A program made the position numbers and the translations under genes. A stretch of 28,851 bases of DNA, from positions 1-28,851 of the IMG/VR virus record IMGVR_UViG_3300025889_000694. One strand, given 5' to 3'. Positions 20,740 to 21,763 of the stretch are shown here, one piece after another; positions within the stretch are counted from its first letter, which is position 1, and the number at the start of each line of letters is the position of its first letter. The DNA is from a virus. The notes under the pieces are model-generated. The model saw only the letters and a program-made list of their open reading frames with translations. It was not told the DNA's origin and did not search any database.

Positions 20740-20895
20740 GTTATATATAAGGGTGGGAATCAACAGATTATGTTGAATTGGGTGGGTGAATTATGGATGT
20801 AAATAGGAGGGTGTGTCATCATCTCATGCCTATTACTACTATATTCAGACATCATCAATAACACATTATACAGACAATAGATATAGCTTTAATAT
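20740..20895. other. Non-coding leader of the RNA island
   Basis: This AT-rich stretch has no frame worth reporting. It contains a TAGCTTTA (20884-20891) resembling a -7 box but no matching -33 TTTG. It leads into the tRNA-like element. Confidence 0.4.
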
Positions 20896-20999
20896 GCAGT
20901 TGGCTCTCTACATTATGGAAATGTAAAAGATAAGGGAGAGATGCCATGTTTACATGGTTATTAACAAAGGAAATGAGGGTTCGAGTCCCTCCAGCTGCA
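20896..20999 (+). ncRNA. tRNA-like cloverleaf RNA 1 (104 nt)
   Basis: The 3' part is a textbook T-arm: GAGGG (20975-20979), TTCGAGT loop, CCCTC (20987-20991). The acceptor stem has 7 bp (GCAGTTG at 20896-20902 with CAGCTGC at 20992-20998, one G-U) and can extend to 9 bp. Between them are a 5-bp stem (CTCTC 20904-20908 with GAGAG 20936-20940) that encloses a smaller hairpin, and a 5-bp hairpin with a 4-nt loop (CCATG/CATGG, 20944-20957) where the anticodon arm should be. There is no ordinary 7-nt anticodon loop, so I call it tRNA-like rather than assign an amino acid. A terminator follows at 21022. Confidence 0.5.
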
Positions 21000-21021
21000 C
21001 AAAAATATTGCAACCGATAAC

Positions 21022-21048
21022 GCCTGACATTTCTATGTTGGGCTTTTT
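21022..21048 (+). terminator. Intrinsic terminator after tRNA-like RNA 1
   Basis: An 8-bp stem with two G-U pairs (GCCTGACA 21022-21029, TGTTGGGC 21036-21043) and a 6-nt loop is followed by TTTTT. It supports a plus-strand transcript ending just after the tRNA-like element. Confidence 0.7.
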
Positions 21049-21079
21049 AATGCACCATTTCAGCTTCCCAAGGGCTGAC

Positions 21080-21227
21080 AGATTGTAATAAGGTATGTAT
21101 AATCCTCTCATGCAGTAAGCATTGATGATTCTTTACACTATGAGAACTTATTACATTCTGAGTGCAGAGGGATTTCTGTTGCACATGGAACACATAGAGA
21201 ATACAATCTAGGCAACAGTGGGTTGTA
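21080..21227 (+). ncRNA. Structured RNA with mutually exclusive helices
   Basis: Segment 21084-21092 (TGTAATAAG) pairs perfectly with 21147-21155, closing a hairpin that also has 6-bp (21106-21111 with 21140-21145) and 4-bp inner stems. The overlapping segment 21080-21087 (AGATTGTA) pairs perfectly with 21202-21209, which excludes the first helix. A third 7-bp stem (21176-21182 with 21212-21218) and a downstream partner (21220-21227) compete as well. This is the architecture of a switching leader RNA. The strand is assumed from its neighbours. Confidence 0.35.
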
Positions 21228-21245
21228 TTTTCATTAAACTTATTT

Positions 21246-21383
21246 CCCACAGATTGGATCAGTAATAGAGCGACAGTTCTATTAAGGGAACACTAAATAG
21301 TAGAATTTAGGGGTTCTTACGTTATATATGTTTTTCTACTGACATATATGAATGTTGTGCAGGTTCGATTCCTGCTTGTGGGG
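21246..21383 (+). ncRNA. tRNA-like RNA 2 with large central insertion (138 nt)
   Basis: A perfect T-arm (GCAGG 21359-21363, TTCGATT loop, CCTGC 21371-21375) is stacked on a 7-bp acceptor stem (CCCACAG 21246-21252 with TTGTGGG 21376-21382, one G-U). An 8-bp hairpin (TAATAGAG 21263-21270, TTCTATTA 21277-21284) sits in the D-arm position. The middle holds two 7-bp helices in crossing order: 21299-21305 with 21334-21340, and 21324-21330 with 21343-21349. These are either alternative or pseudoknotted. No standard anticodon arm is visible. It ends 38 nt before the next gene. Confidence 0.45.
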
Positions 21384-21421
21384 CTCATTTATTTACACAA
21401 ACCAATTAAAACCAATTAGTT

Positions 21422-21763
21422 ATGACTGTTATTTTCGATAGATTAATGAATGGCTGTATGAGGGTGTATATTCACACGTTCTCAGCTGTTGACCAAGCTA
21501 AGTTCACTAATAAACTTTATTCACATTCTGAATACGATACAAATTGGTCTCGTAAGATTTCTGAATGGATTGATAAGTCATATTGTAAGGATTATATTAA
21601 GGAGGATATGATTGGTCATGATACATGTATTACAGTTCTTACGTTCATTGATATATCATCCACCACTGATTTCATACAAGAGCTTAATGGCTATTTTTAT
21701 GATAATGAAGATAGTTCTTATGCACATATGGTTAAATTTCAATCTATTAGCAAAACTAGCTAG
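21422..21763 (+). CDS. Hypothetical early protein (113 aa)
   Basis: A 113-residue protein of mixed composition (MTVIFDRLMNGCMRVYIHTF at the start), with a run of aromatic and acidic residues near the C-terminus (ELNGYFYDNEDSS). It has no membrane segment and no recognised motif. It starts after the leader AAACCAATTAGTT-ATG, nearly identical to that of the 166-aa gene, and ends in TAG, one of few genes here using that stop. Its function is unknown. Confidence 0.5.
   Translation: MTVIFDRLMNGCMRVYIHTFSAVDQAKFTNKLYSHSEYDTNWSRKISEWIDKSYCKDYIKEDMIGHDTCITVLTFIDISSTTDFIQELNGYFYDNEDSSYAHMVKFQSISKTS

Follow-up and report, generated by a model that had tools for sequence, protein, structure and literature searches.

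The nearest known object in plan to the element analysed here, TL1, is RNA C of phage T4 (species 1 RNA, rnaC; 139 nt), a late RNA of unknown function that has been confirmed by Northern blotting (PMC9697503). It is a stable phage RNA from a tRNA locus, as TL1 would be, and combines a perfect T-arm (CCGGG-TTCGAAT-CCCGG) with long hairpins replacing the D- and anticodon arms, but its acceptor forms about five of seven pairs and its body, host and phage are different. Phage genes annotated as tRNA-OTHER or tRNA-Undet share tRNA ends and a non-standard anticodon loop with TL1. In Erwinia phage phiEa21-4, ARAGORN assigns an undetermined two-base anticodon to such a “tRNA-OTHER” gene (EU710883, 21823–21895; L303), so that a gene of the non-decoding tRNA-like kind may be present in a cultured phage. 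The 3′ part of this gene is among the INPHARED matches to TL1; unlike TL1, however, it is a near-normal cloverleaf of 73 nt that ARAGORN calls and that has no large body. The tRNA-OTHER gene of Escherichia phage Antha, a tRNA whose anticodon arm looks normal and which lacks a D-arm, falls outside the class of elements described below. tmRNA (RF00023, RF04321) likewise has a tRNA-like acceptor/T domain, an insert and no anticodon arm, but TL1 is far too short and matches its models in the T-arm only. Lastly, anti-defence phage tRNAs (tRNA-Tyr against retron-Eco7, tRNA-Lys against PrrC) are comparable to TL1 in their tRNA locus, strong promoter and possible counter-defence role, but they are decoding tRNAs, and the effect of tRNA-Tyr on retron-Eco7 is abolished by an anticodon change (PMC11555353).

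TL1 lies in a noncoding gap of a 28,851-base IMG/VR virus record (IMGVR_UViG_3300025889_000694), which was analysed over its whole length and is referred to as the window. Terminase, portal and major head protein of the window match PHROG profiles, and a 73.9-kb contig (L001) is 99.86% identical to it across the 10.4 kb compared. Gene order and head proteins mark the source as a putative crAss-like phage, and the hosts are probably Bacteroidota, as judged from the phage group and two Bacteroidetes MAG matches. From the elements located, the gap reads, in order, promoter-like motif, TL1, terminator, pseudoknot scaffold RNA, second pseudoknot, TL2 and next gene (Table 1).

Table 1. Elements of the noncoding gap, in window coordinates.
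Feature	Position	Strand	Description
Promoter-like motif TATAGCTTTAA (TATAGCWTTAA)	20882–20892	+	Equivalent place in the examined relatives, downstream of a conserved 134-aa gene
TL1, candidate non-decoding tRNA-like RNA	20896–20999	+	7-bp acceptor, T-arm of 5 bp with TTCGAGT, A73, C74; without 5-bp/7-nt anticodon arm
TL1 acceptor	20896–20902/20992–20998	+	GCAGTTG pairs with CAGCTGC, 7 bp; 8 bp counting T20895–A20999
TL1 arm in D position	20904–20940	+	CTCTC/GAGAG (20904–20908/20936–20940) enclosing inner hairpin 20909–20925
TL1 hairpin at anticodon position	20943–20958	+	GCCATG-UUUA-CAUGGU, 6 bp and 4-nt loop
TL1 T-arm	20975–20991	+	GAGGG-TTCGAGT-CCCTC, perfect
Intrinsic terminator	21022–21048	+	8-bp stem, then TTTTT; read from sequence
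Pseudoknotted scaffold RNA with variable insert	21049–21172	+	Separate element; 25 distinct versions in relatives
Second pseudoknot-like element	21177–21232	+	TGTTGC/GCAACA and GAATACAA/TTGTATTTTC; read by eye
TL2, second candidate non-decoding tRNA-like RNA	21246–21382	+	137 nt; 7-bp acceptor and perfect T-arm; discriminator G21383

Of the features of the tRNA family (RF00005), TL1 has the 7-bp acceptor, the TTCRANY T-loop and the discriminator, whereas the anticodon arm (5-bp stem, 7-nt loop, U33) is absent; because it has no anticodon loop, TL1 cannot read codons. A sequence-only reading of this DNA had described an intact T-arm and an intact acceptor of 7–9 bp, and both stems are indeed intact, the acceptor having seven and at most eight but not nine pairs. 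The hairpin at the anticodon position has the 4-nt loop that was claimed, but on a stem of six instead of five base pairs, and an unpaired stretch separates it from the T-arm. The arm in the D position contains an unpaired conserved core, TATGGAAATGTAAAAGATAAG. The 5-bp/7-nt geometry without U33 that had been noted for its inner hairpin is present in the window, but the hairpin is broken in L095, the sole other TL1 version, and its TGG should not be taken for an anticodon loop. With a fold z of −3.1, TL1 was matched in stability by none of 200 shuffles. ARAGORN found no tRNA in the window, none in 20801–21500 when introns of up to 200 nt were allowed, which rejects an ordinary or intron-containing tRNA, and no tmRNA at TL1. 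At the gathering threshold, Rfam returned no family for TL1; with ARAGORN and Rfam calling no tRNA, the view that TL1 has no usable anticodon arm was borne out. Matches at E ≤ 10 were confined to T-arm fragments of tmRNA models, and the tag reading frame, pseudoknots and SmpB-type tRNA domain of tmRNA were not found.

The accessory locus is an exchange hotspot among relatives. In those examined (L002, L004–L007, L012, L013, L052 and L095), it starts with the motif TATAGCWTTAA, which is likely a phage promoter. TL1 begins 14 nt past the first base of the motif in the window and 24 nt past it in L095. The terminase was used to fetch 80 loci, among which TL1 was found behind this motif in one phage type (L095; also L096, L268, L274 and L277), and a scan with the TL1 core gave no versions besides these two. 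The window and L095 versions align with 95 identities, seven substitutions and one 2-nt gap. In BLAST, TL1 forms an isolated 109-nt island of 91.7% identity, compared to 76% for the two longest shared gene stretches, and alignment is poor in the flanking noncoding DNA. The two versions have about 40 nt of the body in common, and the D-position arm differs at three bases only (around 20911–20913). Pairing is kept where the acceptor changes from G-U in the window to G-C in L095 and the anticodon-position hairpin from U-A to U-G. As just two sequence versions are known, there is no two-sided covariation within TL1; covariation of the stems, which the sequence-only reading had named as decisive, thus amounts to consistent one-sided changes in TL1 itself and two-sided compensation in sister elements. 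In L095, the 1.4 kb downstream of TL1 contain neither the pseudoknot scaffold nor TL2, so that TL1 is an independent unit.

A strict scan, requiring a T-arm with five Watson–Crick pairs and a 7-bp acceptor, found two elements in the window and none in 300 shuffled windows, and a chance origin of the tRNA-like elements was rejected on these counts. TL2 and the structured RNA separating it from TL1 had been overlooked in the sequence-only reading. TL2 lies 250 nt downstream of TL1 and differs from it, with acceptor CCCACAG/TTGTGGG and T-arm GCAGG-TTCGATT-CCTGC. Its fold z is −4.0 (0/200 shuffles as stable), and it scores 17.5 bits against the tRNA model (RF00005), below the gathering threshold of 29. 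In both elements, position −1 is T and position 74 is C. Matches in a scan with the TL2 acceptor were confined to 133–134-nt elements with a different body and a regular D-arm, leaving TL2 without a close relative except in the near-identical contig. These 133–134-nt tRNA-likes (L283–L286), from contigs 28–419 kb long, have a long conserved body and no evident anticodon arm. The whole noncoding gap had no significant match in the phage collection and hence none to T4 rnaC; for TL1 and TL2 at E ≤ 10, T4 was not among the matches listed.

At the same locus, relatives carry other tRNA-likes without an anticodon arm of the usual kind. In L052, a 72-nt cloverleaf has a 3-bp D-arm and a 7-bp anticodon arm closed by UUUA; L049/L032 have two elements, of which one has a 9-nt loop on a 7-bp stem and the other is cUUCGg-capped with an extra variable arm. 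The L052 element and both L049/L032 elements have a common acceptor, AGTCAGG/CCTGACT. With TL2 nearby, TL1 a conserved island and relatives carrying such elements, TL1 is not a lone decayed tRNA.

A collection scan found the AGTCAGG/CCTGACT acceptor with a free body in at least 120 viral contigs, and the first reading of this class comprised 114 distinct elements of 60–89 nt. For class statistics, 121 loci were fetched by one pattern and then scanned regardless of acceptor; an anticodon arm was called canonical by a simple rule (at least four of five stem pairs, 7-nt loop, U33, purine 37) that misplaces some elements. By this rule, 178 of 193 distinct AGTCAGG elements were without a canonical anticodon arm and 15 had one, whereas neighbouring elements with other acceptors were mostly canonical (224 of 270; 46 non-canonical). 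Because fetching by pattern biases selection, elements that fitted the pattern were left out, after which 86 non-canonical and two canonical AGTCAGG elements stood against 46 and 222 others (p = 1.5e-45). The control acceptor GCCCAGG occurred in four elements in the whole collection, all with an ordinary tRNA-Leu anticodon loop. Up to nine AGTCAGG elements were found in one 14-kb locus, amid ordinary tRNA genes. The class T-stem is ACAGG/CCTGT; TL1 (GCAGTTG/CAGCTGC, GAGGG) and TL2 (CCCACAG/TTGTGGG, GCAGG) differ from the class in acceptor and T-stem. TL1 was therefore kept out of the class, and as the acceptor is not shared, the kinship of TL1 and TL2 with it is architectural, consisting in the intact upper half, the lack of an anticodon arm, and U at −1 together with C74.

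Among about 85,000 cellular genomes, the AGTCAGG acceptor gave two matches, both in Bacteroidetes MAG contigs, a number on which host mimicry by acceptor sequence was rejected; in 247 Bacteroidota genomes, the sole tRNA-looking match among those listed was the one previously found. Rfam, applied to eight other loci, labelled some AGTCAGG elements as generic tRNA, missed others and reported no other family. A class representative had no significant match in cultured phages, and at E ≤ 10 the matches were partial and mostly to ordinary tRNA genes. Since phage tRNA-counting programs demand an anticodon, RNAs with tRNA ends but no anticodon are dropped or mislabelled. We found no description of such an RNA class in the open-licence PMC literature, and the AGTCAGG-type RNAs across uncultured phages are apparently an undescribed set. 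A conserved protein partner was not found either (best cluster in six loci), so no accompanying protein family hints at function.

The ends of the class resemble those of tRNA genes. U stands at −1 in 85% of AGTCAGG elements and in 70% of canonical tRNA genes in the same loci (background 28%), and the discriminator, A73 in 90% of the class, is followed by C74 in 180 of 180 AGTCAGG elements and 243 of 243 canonical tRNAs (background 17%). If both kinds of gene were matured by RNase P and tRNase Z, selection would favour this pattern, and from it we infer such maturation. The bodies are highly diverse, about 10 to 100 nt long, and slightly more stable than mononucleotide shuffles (mean fold z −0.97). 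At least ten body families recur in at least three loci, one of the ten consisting of mis-paired ordinary tRNAs. One family has covarying, compensatory pairs in the anticodon-position hairpin, and another keeps its body while its acceptor is GACCGGG in one contig instead of the AGTCAGG of the three others. In a 76-nt family of only three sequences (L164:4325−, L165:1337+ and L178:4595−), all seven acceptor pairs show two-sided changes. This family also has a conserved 7-nt loop, CTTATAC, which sits on a short hairpin within the first arm.

On balance, TL1 is probably a discrete non-decoding RNA that is matured by host tRNA enzymes and whose tRNA ends scaffold a variable body. Host RNase P, tRNase Z and CCA-adding enzyme would trim and cap its transcript like a pre-tRNA, and this maturation would yield a stable RNA. 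The tRNA ends would serve as a natural scaffold, and the function would lie in the body, which would bind a host protein or RNA. Though this is a guess, the body most plausibly acts as a decoy or regulator in the conflict with host defence; we base the guess on the hypervariable bodies, the accessory locus and the known RNA-based strategies of phages. TL2 and the AGTCAGG-type RNAs would follow the same plan with other bodies. Both a discrete RNA and a non-decoding tRNA mimic had been proposed from the letters of TL1, with a terminator behind it; the terminator is there, and together with conservation in relatives, a tRNA-gene-like 5′ and 3′ processing context and the upstream promoter-like motif it argues for both proposals.

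The intact upper half could instead be what matters, TL1 and its analogues being non-decoding tRNAs with a Leu-like D-arm that are charged for a role outside translation, or titrating synthetase, EF-Tu or tRNA-targeting toxins. The AGTCAGG-class D-arm is closest to that of canonical tRNA-Leu from the same phages, LeuRS can do without the anticodon, and the prevalence of A73 also fits. We nevertheless regard this as unlikely, as the D region of TL1 is not tRNA-Leu-like, hypervariable bodies would be needless if the upper half alone mattered, and there is no partner gene.

It is quite improbable that the tRNA-like ends are mainly signals in cis, marking a site of processing or recombination within the accessory hotspot, on an RNA without function in trans: exchange among relatives and a GIY-YIG-like ORF at the locus in L008 and L012 would agree with such a role, but TL1, with its conserved body, lies between promoter motif and terminator where there is no gene to process. 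Decay, which the sequence-only reading had kept as an alternative, would make TL1 an ordinary phage tRNA gene that lost its anticodon arm. Phages readily lose tRNAs, and the tRNA-Leu D-arm of the AGTCAGG class and a body without decoding loop would be in keeping with such an origin. Acceptor and T-arm of TL1 are perfect, however, and its body is better conserved than the neighbouring coding genes, which largely refutes decay for TL1; more than 170 analogous elements with perfect ends and C74, as well as the recurrent body families, further make decay very improbable. An unusual functional tRNA, for example intron-containing or edited, that decodes after processing is hardly credible, for although 104 nt leave space for a short insertion and the window has the inner hairpin of 5-bp/7-nt geometry, ARAGORN finds none with introns allowed, that hairpin, which is broken in L095, has no U33, and class members down to 60 nt are too short for an anticodon arm.

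The discrete, host-matured RNA that we favour for TL1 and the similar plan of the other elements suggest that tRNA ends serve phages as a wrapper around other RNA cargo. Tentatively, and as a possibility short of a probable one, these probably Bacteroidota-infecting phages may make use of a large repertoire of exchangeable tRNA-scaffold RNAs, many per genome, in which phage-specific ends, acceptor and T-arm (mostly AGTCAGG/CCTGACT), are the processing and stability module and the hypervariable bodies are payloads that neutralise or regulate host factors, like anti-defence genes. If the RNAs are real, phages carry a whole unread class of stable small RNAs, of which T4 RNA C may be a cultured example, and natural scaffolding by tRNA ends becomes open to testing; should the bodies target defence systems, they would be the RNA equivalent of anti-defence proteins.

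The scaffold RNA between TL1 and TL2 (21049–21172) has no Rfam match. Its plan is AATGYACCATTTC-NNN-TTCCCAAGG-NNN-GACAGATGTA, then a phage-variable insert, then TACATCTGAGTRCAGAGGGA, and it is present in one copy per genome where it occurs. P1, P2 and P3 covary and the pseudoknot UCCC/GGGA is invariant; 97.6% of cells pair, eight pairs are changed on both sides, and the covariation score was reached by none of 500 shuffles. In L008 and L012, the scaffold RNA is split by an ORF that, judged by eye, resembles a GIY-YIG homing endonuclease. The second pseudoknot, which precedes the next gene, keeps its layout with changed letters in L004, L036, L038, L041 and L042 (by eye), and the letters of its second helix co-vary in step across phages.
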